Assembly (NCBI GenBank): GCA_016790285.1
Contig: JAEUPJ010000090.1
Location: 23,939 to 87,938, forward strand
Reading direction: 5' to 3'
Source: Roseateles sp.
GTDB lineage: Bacteria > Pseudomonadota > Gammaproteobacteria > Burkholderiales > Burkholderiaceae_C
Length of the DNA stretch: 64,000 nt
Positions within the stretch are counted from its first letter, which is position 1; every line of letters starts with the position of its first letter. The translations under genes were made by a program, and so were the position numbers. The notes beneath the pieces were generated by a model. That model saw nothing but the letters and a program-made list of their open reading frames with translations, searched no databases and was not told the DNA's origin. This document shows, piece by piece, positions 3,055 to 11,299 of this stretch.

Positions 3055-3079
3055 GCGGGTGCGGGACAATCCCGCTCCG

Positions 3080-6000
3080 ATGAGTCCAGAACGATCCGAG
3101 AGCCGGTTGCCTCAACCGGCTCTTTCCATTTCCTTCCCCGAAAGCCTGCCGGTCTCCGCGCGACGCGATGAGATCATGCAGGCGCTGGCCGAGCATCAGG
3201 TCGTCATCGTCTGCGGCGAGACCGGCTCCGGCAAGACCACGCAGCTGCCCAAGATCGCGCTCGCGATGGGGCGTGGCCGCCTGAATGGCGGCGGCCTGAT
3301 CGGCCACACCCAGCCGCGGCGCATCGCCGCCAGCAGCGTGGCCAAGCGCATCGCCGAGGAGCTGAACACGCCGCTCGGCGACGTGGTCGGCTACAAGGTC
3401 CGCTTTCAGGACCGCCTTTCGCGCGACGCCTCGGTCAAGCTGATGACGGACGGCATCCTGCTGGCCGAGACGCAGAGCGACCCGCTGCTCAAGGCCTACG
3501 ACACGCTGATCATCGACGAGGCCCACGAGCGCAGCCTCAACATCGACTTCCTGCTGGGCTACCTGCGCGAGCTGCTGCCGCGCCGGCCGGACCTGAAGGT
3601 CATCGTCACGTCGGCCACGATCGACGCCGAGCGGTTTGCCAAGCACTTTGAGAGCGCCCGGGGGCCAGCACCGGTGCTGATGGTGTCGGGGCGCCTGTTC
3701 CCTGTCGAGCAGCGCTACCGCCCCTTCGAGGAAAGCCGCGAGTACGACCTCAACAACGCGATCTGCGACGCGGTGGACGAGCTCTGGCGCGAGGGCGGCG
3801 GCGACGTGCTCGTGTTCCTGCCCGGCGAGCGCGAGATCCGCGAGGCGGCTGAGGCGCTGAGGAAGCACCACCCGCCGGGCGTGGAGATCCTGCCGCTGTT
3901 CTCGCGTCTGTCCGAGGCCGACCAGAACAAGGTCTTCGAGCCCCACGGCGCCCGGCGCATCGTGCTGGCCACCAACGTGGCCGAGACCTCGCTGACGGTG
4001 CCGGGCATCCGCTACGTCATCGACCCGGGCCTGGCGCGGGTGAAGCGCTACAGCTACCGCAACAAGGTCGAGCAGTTGCTGATCGAGAACATCAGCCAGG
4101 CGGCCGCCAACCAGCGTGCGGGCCGCTGCGGCCGGGTGAGCAACGGCATCTGCGTGCGGCTGTACAGCGAGAAGGAGTTCAACGAGCGCCCGCGCTTCAC
4201 CGACCCCGAGATCCTGCGCAGCTCGCTGGCCGGCGTCATCCTGCGGATGAAGTCCCTGCACCTGGGTGATGTCGAGCGCTTCCCCTTCCTGGAGGCGCCG
4301 CGCCCCAAGGCCATTGCCGACGGCTACCAGCTGCTCAACGAGCTGGGCGCCACCGACGACGCCAATGAGCTCACGCCCCTGGGCAAGGAGCTGGCCCGCC
4401 TGCCGCTGGACCCGCGCGTGGGCCGCATGATCCTGGAGGCGCGCAGCCGCCAGGCGCTGACCGAGGTGCTCGTCATCGCCTCGGCCCTCTCGGGCCAGGA
4501 CGTGCGCGACCGGCCGCAGGAGCAGGCCCAGGCGGCCGACGAGAAGCACAAGAAGTTCGACGACGAGAAGTCGGAGTTCATGGGCTACCTCAAGCTCTGG
4601 AAGTGGCTCGGCGAGTCCCGCGGCGGCCACGGTCAGGAGCACAAGCTCTCCCACCGCAAGCACGAGGCCCTGCTGCGCGAGAACTTCGTCAGCCCGCGCC
4701 GCGTGCGCGAGTGGCGCGACGTGCACTCCCAGCTGCAGACGGTGGTGGCCGAGCACGGCTGGAAGCTCAACCAGAGCGAGGCCACCTACGAGCAGGTCCA
4801 CCTGTCGATGCTCGCGGGCCTGCTGGGCAACATCGGCCAGAAGAGCGACGACGAGGACTGGTACCTCGGCGCGCGCGGCATCAAGTTCTACCGCCACCCG
4901 GGCGCTCACCTGTCCAAGAAGCCGGGCCGCTGGATCGTGGCCGCCGAGCTGGTGGACACCTCGCGCCTGTACGGCCGGGGCCTGGCCAACATCGAGCCGC
5001 AATGGCTGCCCCCGATCGCCGGCCACCTGATCAAGACCCAGCTGCTGGAGCCGCACTGGGAGAAGAAGGCCGCCGAGGTCGTGGCGCTGGAGCGGGCGAC
5101 GCTCTACGGCATCGTGCTGTACAGCAACAAGCGCGTGAACTTCGGCCGTGTCGACCCGCAGGCGGCGCGCGAGATCTTCATCCGCGAGGGCCTGGTCAAT
5201 GACGACCTGCCCGAGGACCTGGTGCGCCAACTGCCTTTCATCGGCCACAACCGGCGCCAGATCGCCAAGGTCGAGGCCCTGGAGCACAAGTCGCGCCGCC
5301 AGGACGTGCTGGTGGACGACGAGCTCATCTACGCGTTCTACGACGACAAGCTGCCCGCCCACGTGTTCAGCGGCGCCACGCTGCTCAAGTGGTGGCGCGA
5401 GGCGAGCCGCGCCGACGACAAGCTGCTGCAGCTCAGCCAGGACGAGCTGATGCGCCACGAGGCGGCGGGCGTCACGAGCGAGGCCTTCCCCAAGGTCATC
5501 CGCCTGGGCGGCGTGGACTGCGCGGCGAACTACCTGCACCAGCCGGGCGACGCGCGCGACGGCCTGACCGTGACCGTGCCCATCTTTGCGCTCAACCAGG
5601 TCAGCGACGAGCGGGCCGAGTGGCTCGTGCCCGGCATGCTGGGCCAGAAGGTGACGGCCCTGCTCAAGAGCCTGCACCAGAAGCCTCGCGCCCGCCTCAC
5701 GCCGCTGCCGGACTTCGTGGCTGAGTTCATCGAGCTGAACCCCTTCGGGCAGGGCAGCCTGCTGGAGGTGCTGCTCAAGGCGGTGAAGGAGCGCACCCAG
5801 CTCGCGGTGCAGCGCAACGACTTCAAGCTCGAGCAGCTGGCGCCCCACCTGTTCATGAACTTCCGCATCGTCGACGAGCATGGTCGCCAGCTCGGCCAGG
5901 GCCGCCAGCTCGCGGCGTTGAAGGCGGAGCTGGGCAGCCAGGCGCGGTCGGCCTTCCAGGCGCTGGCGGCGCTGAAGCTGCCCGCCGCGGAGTCGCCCAA

Positions 6001-6931
6001 GCCGGCGCCCGCCCCCGCGCCGGTGGCGGGTCGTGGCGTGCGTGCGGAGGTCATCAAGAAGCCTGAGCCGGTGCGCGATGCCGCGCAGACCTACACCGAC
6101 TGGACCTTCGGCGAGCTGCCCGAGCTGCTGGAGGTGCGCAAGGGTGGGCAGACGCTGATCGGCTTCCCGGCGCTCATCGACCGCGGCGCGCATGTCGAGA
6201 TCGAGGTGTTCGACGAGCCCGAGGTGGCCGCCGCCAAGCACCGCGCCGGACTGCGCCGGCTGATCGCGCTGCAGCTCAAGGAGCCCTTGAAGTTCCTGGA
6301 GAAAAACATCCCCGACCTGCAGCGCATGTCGGTGCTCTACATGGGCCTGGGCACGGCCGAGGACCTGCGCGACCAGGTCATCGGCGTGGCGCTGGACCGC
6401 GCCTTCCTGGCCGACCCGCTGCCGACCGACGCGATGAGCTTCAAGAAGCGCGTCGAGGAGGGGCGCAGCCGGCTCAACCTGATCGCGCAGGAGGTGGCGC
6501 GCGCCGTGCACGCCGTGCTGCAGGAGCTGGCCAACGCCAGCCGCAAGCTCAAGGACGCGCGCCCGCCCAAGGACGTCGCCGACGACGTCGCGGCCCAGCT
6601 GCAGCGCCTGTGCCCCAAACGCTTCGCGCTGGACACGCCGTGGTCGCAGCTGCAGCACCTGCCGCGCTACCTCAGGGCCATCACCGCACGGTTGGACAAG
6701 CTGCGCGCCGACCCCGCGCGGGACGCCAAGCTGATGGCCGAGGTGCGACCGCTGGAGCAGCGCTTCACGCGCCGCCTGGCCGAACTCAAGGGCGCGCGCG
6801 ATGCCCGGCTGGACGACTTCCGCTGGCAGCTGGAGGAGCTGCGCGTGAGCCTCTTCGCCCAGGAGCTGCGCACGCCGCAGCCGGTGAGCGTGAAGCGGCT
6901 GGACAAGGTCTGGAGCCAGCTGGGCGGATGA
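3080..6931 (+). CDS. hrpA: ATP-dependent RNA helicase HrpA (DEAH family)
   Basis: A 1283-residue cytoplasmic DEAH-box helicase, the usual size for HrpA, a factor implicated in mRNA processing and rescue of stalled ribosomes. It shows Walker A GETGSGKTTQ (Lys about 52), DEAH near residue 146, SAT at motif III, and QRAGRCGR at motif VI. After the helicase core come the winged-helix/ratchet region, the OB-like region and the long HrpA-specific C-terminal domain (DUF3418). A Pro/Ala-rich linker (PKPAPAPAPVAGRG) lies near residue 975. I chose ATG 3080, which begins MSPERSES, over an in-frame codon 21 nt upstream. Confidence 0.96.
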   Translation: MSPERSESRLPQPALSISFPESLPVSARRDEIMQALAEHQVVIVCGETGSGKTTQLPKIALAMGRGRLNGGGLIGHTQPRRIAASSVAKRIAEELNTPLGDVVGYKVRFQDRLSRDASVKLMTDGILLAETQSDPLLKAYDTLIIDEAHERSLNIDFLLGYLRELLPRRPDLKVIVTSATIDAERFAKHFESARGPAPVLMVSGRLFPVEQRYRPFEESREYDLNNAICDAVDELWREGGGDVLVFLPGEREIREAAEALRKHHPPGVEILPLFSRLSEADQNKVFEPHGARRIVLATNVAETSLTVPGIRYVIDPGLARVKRYSYRNKVEQLLIENISQAAANQRAGRCGRVSNGICVRLYSEKEFNERPRFTDPEILRSSLAGVILRMKSLHLGDVERFPFLEAPRPKAIADGYQLLNELGATDDANELTPLGKELARLPLDPRVGRMILEARSRQALTEVLVIASALSGQDVRDRPQEQAQAADEKHKKFDDEKSEFMGYLKLWKWLGESRGGHGQEHKLSHRKHEALLRENFVSPRRVREWRDVHSQLQTVVAEHGWKLNQSEATYEQVHLSMLAGLLGNIGQKSDDEDWYLGARGIKFYRHPGAHLSKKPGRWIVAAELVDTSRLYGRGLANIEPQWLPPIAGHLIKTQLLEPHWEKKAAEVVALERATLYGIVLYSNKRVNFGRVDPQAAREIFIREGLVNDDLPEDLVRQLPFIGHNRRQIAKVEALEHKSRRQDVLVDDELIYAFYDDKLPAHVFSGATLLKWWREASRADDKLLQLSQDELMRHEAAGVTSEAFPKVIRLGGVDCAANYLHQPGDARDGLTVTVPIFALNQVSDERAEWLVPGMLGQKVTALLKSLHQKPRARLTPLPDFVAEFIELNPFGQGSLLEVLLKAVKERTQLAVQRNDFKLEQLAPHLFMNFRIVDEHGRQLGQGRQLAALKAELGSQARSAFQALAALKLPAAESPKPAPAPAPVAGRGVRAEVIKKPEPVRDAAQTYTDWTFGELPELLEVRKGGQTLIGFPALIDRGAHVEIEVFDEPEVAAAKHRAGLRRLIALQLKEPLKFLEKNIPDLQRMSVLYMGLGTAEDLRDQVIGVALDRAFLADPLPTDAMSFKKRVEEGRSRLNLIAQEVARAVHAVLQELANASRKLKDARPPKDVADDVAAQLQRLCPKRFALDTPWSQLQHLPRYLRAITARLDKLRADPARDAKLMAEVRPLEQRFTRRLAELKGARDARLDDFRWQLEELRVSLFAQELRTPQPVSVKRLDKVWSQLGG

Positions 6932-7063
6932 CGCCCCGGGTGCACGGCGCCGGGCGCGGTTCGTGAGCTGGTGCACACAAGCCGGTCTGGCGGGCAGCTG
7001 GGGTGGAAATCCGTCGCATTTCGGTGCATGGCGTTGCGGCCAGCGCTGTCAGGCTGGAGTCCA

Positions 7064-8893
7064 ATGCGGCTACAAGCTTTTGTTACATCCCGCCGCCCGC
7101 CGCCCGTGTCCGACACCAGCCCCGCCGCATCGCCGTTGAAGAGCTTCGGCCGTTTCGAGTTGCGCGCCCTCCTGTCCAAGAGTGCACGCAGCCTGATCTG
7201 GCGCGTCCACGACCCTCGCCACGGGCAGGAGCTGATGCTGTGCATGCCGCGCGAGAAGCCCAACAGCAAGCCGGCCCTGGACCACTGGCTGCGCATGGCG
7301 CACGGTGGCGAGCGGGTGCAGCACCCGAACGTGGCGCCGGTCTTCGAGATCGGCGAGGTCGAGAGCTGGCCCTATGTGGCGTATGACCGGGGCCTGGGCG
7401 AGACGCTGGAAGAGCGGCTGGCCCGGCAGAAGGCGCCGCTGCCCATCGACGCGGCCAACTGGATCGCCCAGTTGCTCGAAGGCCTGGCCTTCGCGCATGA
7501 GGCGGGGCACGCCCACCGCGACATCCAGACCGCCAGCCTCGTCATCGACGGCCTGGACAAGGTGCGCCTCATCGGCCTGGAAGTGGCCCAGGAGGTGTTC
7601 CCGGCGAATGTCGACTTCAACACCGTCAGCCGCCGCGCGGTGCGGGAATCGGCCGAGGAGGACGTGCTCTGCGTCGGCCTGATGCTCAACCGCATCTTGA
7701 GCGGCAAGCCGGTGCTGGAGGAAAACGACCTGCAGCACGTCGTGCAGCAGATGCAGCCCAACGGCCGCGAACTGGTGCGGCTGGGCTGGGAGACGCCGCA
7801 CCCCATCCCCGACCCGCTGCGCGCCATCTGCAACCGCGCGACCGACCGCCAGCTGCGCCAGCGCTACCACCTGGCCCGCAGCTTCTGGCGCGCGCTGGAC
7901 GGCTGGCGCCAGGCCGCGGCCTACGACAGCGGGGGCCCCATCGTGCTGCTGCTGGACAAGCTGCAGCGCGGCGGCCACCTGCCCACGACCATCTCCGGCC
8001 TGCACCGCTACACCTCGGGCTCCGGCCTGGAGAACCAGCATGCCAGCGCGCTGTCGGAGTTCGTGCTCAAGGACATGGCGCTGAGCCTGGAGCTCGTGCG
8101 CCGCGTGAACAACGCGCTCAAGCAGGCCGGCCATGCCGGCGAGACCGTGCTCAACATGCAGCGCGCCATCCAGATGCTGGGCCTGGACGGGCTGCAGCTC
8201 GCCGCCAACGCGCTCAAGCCCTGGCCGGGGCCGCTCGCGCCGGTGGCCGCCGAGATGCTGCGCCAGCTGATGGCGCGCGTGACCAAGGCGGCGCAGGTGG
8301 CCCAGGCGCTGCGCCCGGCGGGGTACGACGGCGAGGTCGTGCACCTCATCACGGTCATGCAAAACCTCGGCCGGCTGCTGCTGCAGTACCACTTCCCGGA
8401 CGACGCGCAGCAGATCCGCCAGCTCATGGTGCCGCCCGAGCCCACCGAGGACCAGCCCAACCCGCCCGCCCTGAGCGAGCAGGCCGCGGCCTACGCCGTG
8501 CTCGGCTGCGACCTGGAGGCCCTGGGTGCCGCCGTGGCCCGCCACTGGGGGCTGGGCGACGAGCTGCAGCAGATGATCCGCCGCCAGCCGCTGGACGCTC
8601 CCGTTCACCCGGCCCGCACGGACACCGACGCCATCCGGCTGACCTGCAGCTTTGCCAATGAACTCGTGGATGCCCTCGGCCTGCCCGAGTCGCGCCGCCG
8701 CCTGGGCGTGGAGATGGCCACGCGCCGCTACGGCAAGGCGCTGGGCGTGGGCCTGCGCGAAGTGATGGAGGCGCTCAACCCGGGTGCGCGCAAGCCGGGG
8801 GCGCCATCGCCGTCGGGCCGGGACGCCGATGCGCCGGCTGCGGCGCCCGCCTCGTCGTTGCGCGAGCGACTCACGTCCCGCAACGGTTCCTGA
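7064..8893 (+). CDS. kinase-like (pseudokinase) plus HDOD domain protein
   Basis: A 609-residue cytoplasmic signalling protein. Residues about 30 to 280 follow the Ser/Thr protein kinase fold but lack the active site. There is no glycine-rich loop (ALLSKSARSLIW) and no VAxK lysine (ELMLCMPRE). The catalytic loop reads HRDIQTAS instead of HRDLKPEN, and DFG is replaced by LIGLE. Residues about 290 to 500 form an HDOD domain (FVLKDMALSLELVRRVN, LNMQRAIQMLGLDGLQ). HDOD domains are non-catalytic relatives of HD hydrolases found in signalling and motility proteins. The start at ATG 7064 has GGAG 5 nt upstream; a GTG at 7106 is possible. It lies 12 nt before an active paralogue, so the two are probably co-expressed. 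Confidence 0.85.
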   Translation: MRLQAFVTSRRPPPVSDTSPAASPLKSFGRFELRALLSKSARSLIWRVHDPRHGQELMLCMPREKPNSKPALDHWLRMAHGGERVQHPNVAPVFEIGEVESWPYVAYDRGLGETLEERLARQKAPLPIDAANWIAQLLEGLAFAHEAGHAHRDIQTASLVIDGLDKVRLIGLEVAQEVFPANVDFNTVSRRAVRESAEEDVLCVGLMLNRILSGKPVLEENDLQHVVQQMQPNGRELVRLGWETPHPIPDPLRAICNRATDRQLRQRYHLARSFWRALDGWRQAAAYDSGGPIVLLLDKLQRGGHLPTTISGLHRYTSGSGLENQHASALSEFVLKDMALSLELVRRVNNALKQAGHAGETVLNMQRAIQMLGLDGLQLAANALKPWPGPLAPVAAEMLRQLMARVTKAAQVAQALRPAGYDGEVVHLITVMQNLGRLLLQYHFPDDAQQIRQLMVPPEPTEDQPNPPALSEQAAAYAVLGCDLEALGAAVARHWGLGDELQQMIRRQPLDAPVHPARTDTDAIRLTCSFANELVDALGLPESRRRLGVEMATRRYGKALGVGLREVMEALNPGARKPGAPSPSGRDADAPAAAPASSLRERLTSRNGS

Positions 8894-8905
8894 CGCCGCC
8901 ACGCC

Positions 8906-11299
8906 ATGGCCGACGAACTTCCTCCCCAGCTCGGCCGCTTCCGGCTGCTGCAGCGCCTGGGGGAGGGGGCACAGGCGACCGTGTGGCTGGCGCACGACCC
9001 GCTGCTGGACCGGGAGGTGGCCGTCAAGCTGCTCAAGCCGCAGGTGGCAGACGCCAGCGACCCCGGCACGGTTGACGAGTGGCTGCACGAAGCCCGCGCC
9101 GTCAGCCGCCTGACCCACCCCAACATCGTGCCCGTCTTCGAGGCGGACACGCAGGGCGGGCGCTCCTACCTGGTGTTCGAGTACGTCTCGGGCGGCACGC
9201 TGAGCCAGCGGTTGCGCCACCCGCCGCTGCCCACGGCCGCCGAGGCCGTGACGCTGATGCTGGGCATCCTGGACGGCCTGACCGCCGCCCACGCCGCCGG
9301 CCTCGTGCACCGCGACCTCAAGCCCAGCAACATCCTGCTGGACGCGCGCGGCCGCCCGCGCGTCATGGACTTCGGCATCGCCGTGCGCGTCTCGCCCGAC
9401 GCCAACCACCCCTCGCGCATCGTCGGCACGCCCGGCTACATCTCGCCCGAGGCCGCGCGCGGCGCGCCGCCGCACCCGCAGATGGACGTGTTCGCCGCGG
9501 CCATCATGCTGGCCGAGATGCTCAGCGGCCAGCGCCTGAACCACGACGCCGACCCCTGGCGCACCATCCAGCGCGTGCAGACGACCGACCTGCTGCTGCC
9601 CTCGGGGCTCGCGACGGAAGTCGACGACACGCTGCGCGCCATCGTGCAGCGCGGGCTCGCGCGCGACCCGGCGGCGCGCTGGCCGAGCGCGGCGGCCATG
9701 CGCGATGCGCTGGCGGCCTGGCTGCACCCCGTGGCGGAGCCCGACGCCGAAGCCCAGCAGGAGGCCCCGGTGCTGGACTTCCTGCTGCGCCGCATGCGCC
9801 ACCGCAGCGACTTCCCCGCGCTGTCCGACGCCATCGGCCGCATCCAGCGCCTGACACAGTCCGAGAACGAGAGCCTGGCGAGCCTGTCCAACGAGATCCT
9901 CAAGGACGTGGCCCTCACGCAGAAGCTGCTGCGCCTGGTCAACACCGCGGCCTACCGGCACACGGGTGGTGGCGGCATCAGCACGGTGTCGCGGGCGGTG
10001 GCGCTGATCGGCTTCGCGGGCATCCGCAATCTGGCGCTCAGCCTCGTGCTGCTGGAGCGCATGGAGAACAAGGGCCATGCGCAGCGGCTGCGGGAAGACT
10101 TCCTGCGCTCGCTGATGGCCGCGTCGCTGGCGCGGGAGCTGTGCCCCAATGCGCGCGAGGCCGAGGAGGCTTTCCTCGGCGCGATGCTGCACCACCTCGG
10201 GCGCACGCTGACCGAGTTCTACTTCCCGGAGGAGGCCGACGCCGTGCGGCGCTTGGTGACGCCGATGGAAGGCGGCCAGCCGCCGCTGTCCGAGGCCGTG
10301 GCGTCCACGCAGGTGCTGGGCATGAGCTACGAGGGGCTCGGCCTGGGCGTGGCGCGCCAGTGGGGCTTCCCCGACAGCCTGCAGCGGGCGATGCGCCGGC
10401 CCGGCGGCGAGGCGCCGGCCAAGCTCATCGAGGACAGTGGCGAACGCCAGCGCTGGCTGGCCCGCGCCAGCAACGACATGGCCGACCTCATCCTGCAGAC
10501 GCCGCCCGAGCAGGCCCACGCCAAGCTGCGTGCGCTGGCGCAGCGGCATGCGCGCGCGCTGGGCCTGAACGCCGAGACCTTCGAGCAGGCGGCCGACACC
10601 GCCCGGCGCCACCTCGCGCAGATGACCGAGGCGCTGGGCCTGCAGTTGCCGCGGGAATCTCGCGCGCAGCGGCTGCTGGCGCCGGTGATGCCTTCGGTGC
10701 AGGACTCCCTCACGGCGCACGAACTCGTGCCCACCCAGGTGCTGGAGCGCACCGAGGCTGGCGCCCAGCCCGCGGCCGCGGCGTCAGGCGACCTGCTGGC
10801 CGCGGGCATCCATGAGATCACCGATGCCATGGTCAATGGCTGCCAGCTCAACGCGGTGCTGCGCATGGTGCTGGAGACGATCTACCGGGCGCTCGGCGTG
10901 CGGCGCGTCATCTTCTGCCTGCGGGACTCGCGCGGGCAGACGCTGACGGGCCGGCTCGGCGTGGGCGCCGACGTGGAGCGGCTGGCGCCTGTGCTGCGCG
11001 TGGACCTCGCTGCGCAGCCGGCCGACCTCTTCGCCGCGGTGTGCCTGAAAGGGGCCGACACGCTCATCCAGGATGCGAGTGCCGCCAACATCGCCGCGCG
11101 CCTGCCCGCCTGGGCCAAGGGCGAGCTGCAGGCGCCCAGCCTGCTGCTGCTGCCGCTGATGGTGAAGGGCTCGCCGCTGGGCCTGATCTACGCCGACCAC
11201 GCCCGCGCGGGCGGCATCGTCGTGGACGAGAAAAGCCTCGCGCTGCTGCGCACGCTGCGCAACCAGGCCGTGATGGCCTTCCGCACGACGCCTACCTGA
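8906..11299 (+). CDS. Ser/Thr protein kinase with HDOD and GAF domains
   Basis: A 797-residue protein with three modules. Residues about 10 to 275 form a complete Hanks-type kinase: LGEGAQATVW loop, VAVK with Lys41, HRDLKPSN near residue 135, DFG at about 155 and GTPGYISPE in the activation segment. Residues about 290 to 500 form an HDOD domain (DFPALSDAIGRIQRLT, SNEILKDVALTQKLLRLVN). Residues about 630 to 790 resemble a GAF sensor domain (LRMVLETIYRALGVRRVIFCLRD, LLLLPLMVKGSPLGLIYAD). No membrane segment is visible, so it should act in the cytoplasm and sense a soluble ligand. It shares kinase-HDOD order with the inactive protein just upstream, which suggests duplication and a partner or substrate relation. 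Confidence 0.88.
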   Translation: MADELPPQLGRFRLLQRLGEGAQATVWLAHDPLLDREVAVKLLKPQVADASDPGTVDEWLHEARAVSRLTHPNIVPVFEADTQGGRSYLVFEYVSGGTLSQRLRHPPLPTAAEAVTLMLGILDGLTAAHAAGLVHRDLKPSNILLDARGRPRVMDFGIAVRVSPDANHPSRIVGTPGYISPEAARGAPPHPQMDVFAAAIMLAEMLSGQRLNHDADPWRTIQRVQTTDLLLPSGLATEVDDTLRAIVQRGLARDPAARWPSAAAMRDALAAWLHPVAEPDAEAQQEAPVLDFLLRRMRHRSDFPALSDAIGRIQRLTQSENESLASLSNEILKDVALTQKLLRLVNTAAYRHTGGGGISTVSRAVALIGFAGIRNLALSLVLLERMENKGHAQRLREDFLRSLMAASLARELCPNAREAEEAFLGAMLHHLGRTLTEFYFPEEADAVRRLVTPMEGGQPPLSEAVASTQVLGMSYEGLGLGVARQWGFPDSLQRAMRRPGGEAPAKLIEDSGERQRWLARASNDMADLILQTPPEQAHAKLRALAQRHARALGLNAETFEQAADTARRHLAQMTEALGLQLPRESRAQRLLAPVMPSVQDSLTAHELVPTQVLERTEAGAQPAAAASGDLLAAGIHEITDAMVNGCQLNAVLRMVLETIYRALGVRRVIFCLRDSRGQTLTGRLGVGADVERLAPVLRVDLAAQPADLFAAVCLKGADTLIQDASAANIAARLPAWAKGELQAPSLLLLPLMVKGSPLGLIYADHARAGGIVVDEKSLALLRTLRNQAVMAFRTTPT

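Follow-up and report, generated by a model that had tools for sequence, protein, structure and literature searches.

A conserved pseudokinase-HDOD gene beside an intact kinase-HDOD-GAF gene in Roseateles and its relatives

Introduction

What role could a kinase-fold protein play once it has lost catalytic residues, when its gene lies directly in front of that of an intact sister kinase? This question is raised by two neighbouring genes, here called A and B, in a 64,000-nucleotide stretch of Roseateles DNA (the window). A conserved pseudokinase in an apparent operon with a catalytically intact sister occurs here in cultured Roseateles, and relatives that carry A alone or B alone provide natural controls, so that control of live kinases by dead ones becomes testable in bacteria.

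Organization of the locus

Genes A and B lie on the forward strand, the stop codon of A ending at 8893 and the ATG of B beginning at 8906, which leaves the spacer of 12 nt (8894-8905) described in the original prediction. A gene for an hrpA-type helicase (DEAD, HA2 and DUF3418 domains; 3059-6931) precedes A, DUF4398/OmpA genes come after B, and beyond these lies a convergent purM-type gene with AIRS domains. The nearest named relative of the A protein in the window is that of Roseateles puraquae, with 91% identity. Spacing between the two genes was also measured in named loci, using a simple rule to pick the start of B and 74 of 76 values. The genes overlap by 4 nt in 15 of these loci and by 1 nt in one, are separated by 1-100 nt in 54 and lie further apart in four, with a median distance of 12 nt. 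A and B form an apparent operon and would be co-transcribed.

Gene A (7106-8893, + strand) encodes a pseudokinase-HDOD protein of 595 amino acids, as assigned by Pfam and by comparison of its start with those of relatives. The start had been placed at the ATG at 7064; a GTG at 7106, 14 codons downstream, is likelier. Eight of ten close relatives carry GTG at the codon aligned to 7106 and the other two carry it two codons upstream, while two of the ten have an in-frame stop between the position of the ATG and the GTG. From these alignments, GTG 7106 is most likely the translation start.

The kinase-fold domain of A covers residues of about 15-272 (7148-7921, + strand, ends approximate), as judged from Pfam, an AlphaFold model and Foldseek. 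The Pfam Pkinase match has an E-value of 3.3e-10 and is limited to profile positions 53-252. It is followed by an HDOD domain (PF08668) at residues 309-494 (8030-8587, + strand; E-value about 7.5e-12 to 7.8e-12), which scores 45.5 bits against a Pfam cut-off of 22.9. All 47 aligned members of the A family have the HDOD match, and 45 of them have the Pkinase match. Chance matches are excluded for A because both domains exceed their Pfam cut-offs and the arrangement is conserved. The AlphaFold model has a mean pLDDT of 88.4 and a pTM of 0.78, and its best PDB matches in Foldseek are bacterial Hanks kinase domains (6b2p, a PknB entry, E-value 2.6e-11, TM 0.68 by target length). The best sequence match of A is PknB (2.2e-28).

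Gene B (8906-11299, + strand; open reading frame and Pfam) encodes a Hanks kinase-HDOD-GAF protein of 797 amino acids. Its kinase domain (8942-9700, + strand; Pkinase, 5.6e-43) has an intact K41, HRD at 135-137 and DFG at 155-157, and is followed by an HDOD domain (9815-10396, + strand; 1.5e-32, 113.1 bits against a cut-off of 22.9) and a GAF domain (PF01590; 10847-11278, + strand; 5.1e-7, 30.7 bits against a cut-off of 22.4). With K41, D137 and D155 in place and the HDOD and GAF matches over their cut-offs, the description of the second gene as a full Hanks kinase with a GAF domain holds. Among aligned B rows with letters at these positions, the Lys is present in 59 of 60, the HRD Asp in 59 of 61 and the DFG Asp in 61 of 61; in 78 named loci, after exclusion of L181 and L194 as matches to the A gene, the counts are 78, 78 and 77. 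By its sequence, B is a Hanks-type kinase. The model of B has a mean pLDDT of 84.0 and a pTM of 0.47, so the arrangement of its domains is unsure. The two proteins had been assigned the same order of domains. The kinase-like domain followed by HDOD is indeed shared, but no GAF match was found in A by Pfam.

Several variants of B were observed. In genome G147, a diverged member of the B family with no A neighbour (L109) retains the DFG Asp, but its beta3 Lys, HRD Asp and catalytic Asn are gone. HDOD-GAF proteins related to B, in which the kinase domain is absent or a remnant, occur at L112-L116 (G022, G057, G071, G092 and G051) and elsewhere; in G071, G092 and G051 the HDOD-GAF protein is encoded on a different contig from a solitary A gene.

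Loss and retention of catalytic residues in A

The motifs of A were counted in two sets. The family sample comprises 59 A genes from genomes of the genus and family, 57 of which, window A included, span the kinase motifs. The named loci are the best 80 of 289 relatives, mostly from Roseateles, Rubrivivax, Rhizobacter, Piscinibacter and their kin. In 24 of the 80, the A stretch is identical to one in the genus and family sample, and the two sets are not independent.

The Lys of beta3 (VAIK) is absent throughout (0/57 in the family sample and 0/80 in the named loci), its position being occupied by Cys in the window (7241-7243, + strand). Likewise, GLE replaces DFG (7574-7582, + strand), and the DFG Asp was found in 0/57 and 0/80. 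The catalytic loop survives as a remnant, HRDIQ (7514-7528, + strand), in which the HRD Asp is kept (54/57 and 77/80) and the Lys of HRDxK is replaced by Gln (50/57 and 79/80). The catalytic-loop Asn occurs in 4/57 and 2/80. By eye, the segment from DFG to the helix-F Asp is about 10 residues shorter in the A of the window than in its B, and no APE motif was seen in window A. In PMC12599244, a pseudokinase is a protein from which the beta3 Lys, HRD Asp and/or DFG Asp has disappeared, and A, which lacks at least one of the three, is a pseudokinase on the evidence of its sequence. The first gene had been described as having no active site, which is borne out for the beta3 Lys, the HRDxK Lys and DFG, but not for the HRD Asp.

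Conserved sites specific to A number 31, of which 13 fall at residues 204-266 in the C-lobe of the kinase fold, a grouping made by eye after seeing the data. The residue equivalent to Leu33 of PknB, which serves back-to-back dimers, is His in 22, Leu in 20 and Ser in 17 of the 80 named loci, with other residues in the rest, and the Leu is kept in B in 78 of 78. Given that role of Leu33, its retention in B and not in A argues mildly against a back-to-back geometry for an A-B complex.

The region upstream of A

Between hrpA and A, at 6960-7090, the window shares conserved non-coding blocks with 15 close relatives. Their core, GTCCAATGC, is present in 16 of the 16 aligned sequences, and GAAATCCGTCGCATTTC in most of them. 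The same alignment defines an element, TGGAGTCCAATGC...TGTTAC, at 7055-7086 (+ strand), the full pattern of which occurs once in the genome of the window. Both the blocks and this element are perhaps promoters or operators. The leader folds no better than shuffled sequences (z 0.05), and a search of it for a sigma-70-like site revealed none.

Distribution of A and B

Gene A was found in 20 of 20 genomes of the same genus, including that of the window. Among the 80 named loci, B directly follows A in 78; one locus has no B, and another stops at the contig edge. The adjacency therefore extends beyond one strain. These named loci exaggerate the strictness of the link between A and B, since they were the top matches among 289 relatives and include 24 that duplicate sampled genomes.

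A wider view is given by 150 family genomes, in which A was found in 51 and kinase-B in 52 (including two diverged members, G147 and G158), with both in 37 and neither in 84; the counts were made by hand from the top 6 or 8 candidates in each genome, and misses are possible. The two genes are adjacent and co-directional in every one of the 37 genomes that have both, and their co-presence has a Fisher p of 4.6e-12, a value that ignores phylogeny. The pair had been proposed as a two-protein signalling unit. A strict form of that proposal is not supported, since 14 of the 51 genomes with A have no kinase-B and, conversely, 15 of the 52 with kinase-B have no A, and the pair is not an obligate unit. 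When the 14 A-only loci were inspected, no B was found beside A, and purM lay within about 1.4 kb in 10 of them, as in paired loci, so that A has a use independent of B. On the A tree, the absence of kinase-B entails at least nine changes of state, five of them forced by starred branches, with gain and loss indistinguishable. Neighbour clustering of the 15 B-only loci revealed no gene other than B that was common to more than a few.

In one B-less genome, A and purM are separated by a gene that weakly matches putAbiC, a putative phage abortive infection domain (L079:7431-8438; 8.7e-6). Spread of A on plasmids was considered and rejected, with no match among 72,556 plasmid records at an E-value of 1e-20.

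Origin of A

In a tree of 79 kinase-HDOD sequences, all 24 A rows form one clade with an SH-aLRT of 100, separate from B and from the relatives in other families; the tree is unrooted, comes from a quick search and has some long branches. The single A clade, the domain order that A and B have in common and their common location in the genome make an early tandem duplication the simplest account. Among the matches listed from 200 genomes of the order, with the best 6 candidates taken per genome, no A was seen outside the family of the window, because the best match outside it scores 325 bits, against 895 for window A and 362 for window B.

The kinase-HDOD-GAF architecture of B is, by comparison, widespread and ordinary. 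Full-length profile matches were found in 13 of 274 genomes of the class outside the family, and such matches are numerous in the order sample too. These B-type proteins share the architecture of B and have mostly intact motifs, and no family name was found for them. Unlike the B of the window, those outside the family had no A-type neighbour in the loci examined. Tandem kinase-HDOD copies also occur elsewhere, with intact motifs in both copies at L241 and L242. In another family, the second copy of a tandem pair (L243:4436-6232) has NFG for DFG, at a contig end where its GAF part may be cut off, and its sequence is perhaps that of an independent step towards a pseudokinase.

Constraint on A and its possible function

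Selection on the pair was estimated by comparing the window with nine close relatives. The dN/dS of A is 0.08-0.18 in the pseudokinase domain and 0.07-0.23 in HDOD; that of B is 0.08-0.19 in the kinase domain, 0.08-0.21 in HDOD and 0.13-0.29 in GAF, where constraint on the pair is weakest. Values for hrpA are 0.10-0.20. The kinase-like domain of A is under selection similar to that on the kinase domain of B. The reading frame of A is unbroken across both domains in 57 of 59 genes, the two split genes (G074 and G122) being possible sequencing errors, and 27 columns are invariant in 47 diverse members.

These data were used to construct a model of the pair. Early in the history of the family of Roseateles, Rubrivivax, Piscinibacter, Rhizobacter and their relatives, tandem duplication of a kinase-HDOD-GAF gene probably gave rise to the pair. 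One copy, A, would have lost the GAF domain, the ATP-binding Lys, the DFG Asp and a portion of the activation segment; strong purifying selection would then have maintained this non-catalytic protein. B is predicted to be a catalytically active Ser/Thr kinase of the cytoplasm, with HDOD and GAF domains that tune its output. A would serve as a regulatory or docking subunit. In most hosts it would do so for B, in a hetero-complex with contacts via HDOD and/or the kinase C-lobe; in others it may serve a different partner. In line with the original prediction, A may be a scaffold, an allosteric partner or a substrate of B, and B may sense a soluble ligand through its GAF domain. A role directed at B is suggested by the adjacency, the short spacing, the co-presence and the density of A-specific sites in the C-lobe, and the hypothesis, though reasonable, is weakened by the A-bearing genomes without kinase-B. 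We consider the chances about even that this model holds. In the reading favoured by the data, A is a non-catalytic regulator that is probably co-expressed with B and works in part through it.

Three other explanations were weighed against this model. The loss of catalytic residues, and a pocket no better conserved than its surroundings in the domain, could mean that A is a decaying duplicate without function. Such decay is extremely improbable and was set aside on dN/dS, as the pseudokinase domain is constrained like hrpA; the unbroken frames and invariant columns also speak against it. A more serious alternative, which we regard as possible though doubtful, is that A and B are independent paralogues, adjacent through tandem duplication and a common promoter, with A serving a partner of its own through HDOD. 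Genomes that hold one gene without the other (14/51 and 15/52) fit this explanation, as does the retention of HxDQ in 10 of the 14 A proteins from B-less genomes. Tests of co-evolution likewise single out no link between A and B. In mirror-tree analysis, the partial correlation of A with B was 0.63 given purM (33 loci) and 0.35 given hrpA (52 loci), and that of B with hrpA given A was 0.66 (52 loci), so that the outcome varies with the control gene. In rate comparisons, terminal branches of A were longer in B-less genomes (p 0.009), with no difference in length from root to tip (p 0.28) or in the purM ratio (p 0.83). These comparisons used 26 rows (10 B-less and 16 paired), or 18 (10 and 8) for the purM ratio; the Roseateles-side clade was represented by G080 only, and six rows at the base, of which four are B-less, were set aside. 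Against independence, B sits directly behind A in 78 of the 80 named loci, the two being closely spaced or overlapping, which goes beyond what independent genes would require, and A and kinase-B were found apart in none of the 37 sampled genomes that have both.

The remaining explanation holds that the pocket of A is rewired and not dead, binding nucleotide or performing atypical chemistry without the beta3 Lys and DFG, and that A serves B in this way as its sensor or switch. In the 80 named loci, the pocket retains a Gly-loop Lys (K25 in the window; 7178-7180, + strand) in 80, a second Gly-loop residue, Arg, in 72, Pro-Arg after beta3 in 80, and HxDQ with its His in 80, along with the Asp and Gln counted above. 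Precedents are described in PMC4718504, where basic residues elsewhere replace the lost ones: STRAD-alpha binds ATP independently of cations, ROP5B has a Gly-loop Arg, and in WNK a Lys is supplied from beta2. A like suggestion exists for the DLHK bacterial pseudokinases (PMC12599244). However, the named loci are close relatives, and in the wider family sample the Gly-loop Arg falls to 37 of 57, with Lys in 50 and Arg in 5 at the Gly-loop Lys position (55/57 together). The Arg after beta3 is also the commonest residue there in B. Moreover, conservation of the A pocket is 0.67 against 0.63 for the rest of the domain (p 0.19), compared with 0.85 against 0.67 in B. Since the pocket, taken together, does not stand out from its domain in conservation, nucleotide binding by A is kept as a rival only, and a rewired pocket seems decidedly unlikely. 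The boldest version of the regulator model is also rather unlikely. It would make A an ancient dedicated subunit whose pocket, with its Gly-loop Lys, HxDQ and GLE, was rewired for metal-free nucleotide binding and which switches B via HDOD and the C-lobe, as an independent bacterial counterpart of STRAD/LKB1.

Comparison with known systems

The original prediction knew of no described system with this exact pair, and among the matches listed from the open-licence PMC literature, the scope of the search, no kinase-HDOD pair of this kind is described. The new part is the conserved pseudokinase sister beside B, the architecture of B being already ordinary. A was compared with the DLHK and GLW pseudokinases by their published descriptions. 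As described in PMC12599244, the proteobacterial DLHK pseudokinases are nearest to A in motif logic among the families compared, with the HRD Asp kept and VAIK and DFG degraded, as in A. They differ from it in three respects. The catalytic-loop Arg constrained in DLHK, read as the fifth letter of Hrdlrpas in PMC12599244, is the Gln described above in A (79/80 and 50/57). The catalytic-loop Asn of DLHK is missing from A, where Asn occurs in 2/80 and 4/57, although the Pseudomonas aeruginosa member in the table of PMC12599244 itself ends in s. Finally, A carries HDOD, while DLHK carries helicase/DNA2 in the description of PMC12599244, a review whose main text does not contain the word HDOD. In the GLW pseudokinases, GLW replaces HRD (PMC12599244), whereas A has HxDQ and so falls outside that group.

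The HDOD proteins SadB, GsmR and HdpA are described in PMC6543031 as using HDOD as a non-catalytic signalling domain, which is also how it would act in A, and SadB is reported there to bind c-di-GMP. In contrast to A, they are described there with no kinase or pseudokinase domain. For the pairing of a non-catalytic kinase-fold protein with a live kinase, STRAD-alpha/LKB1 (PMC4718504) and ROP5/ROP18 (PMC3493473), as described in these sources, provide a working analogy to A and B. Both of those pairs are eukaryotic; A-B is a likely candidate for a bacterial instance in which a dead kinase controls a live one.
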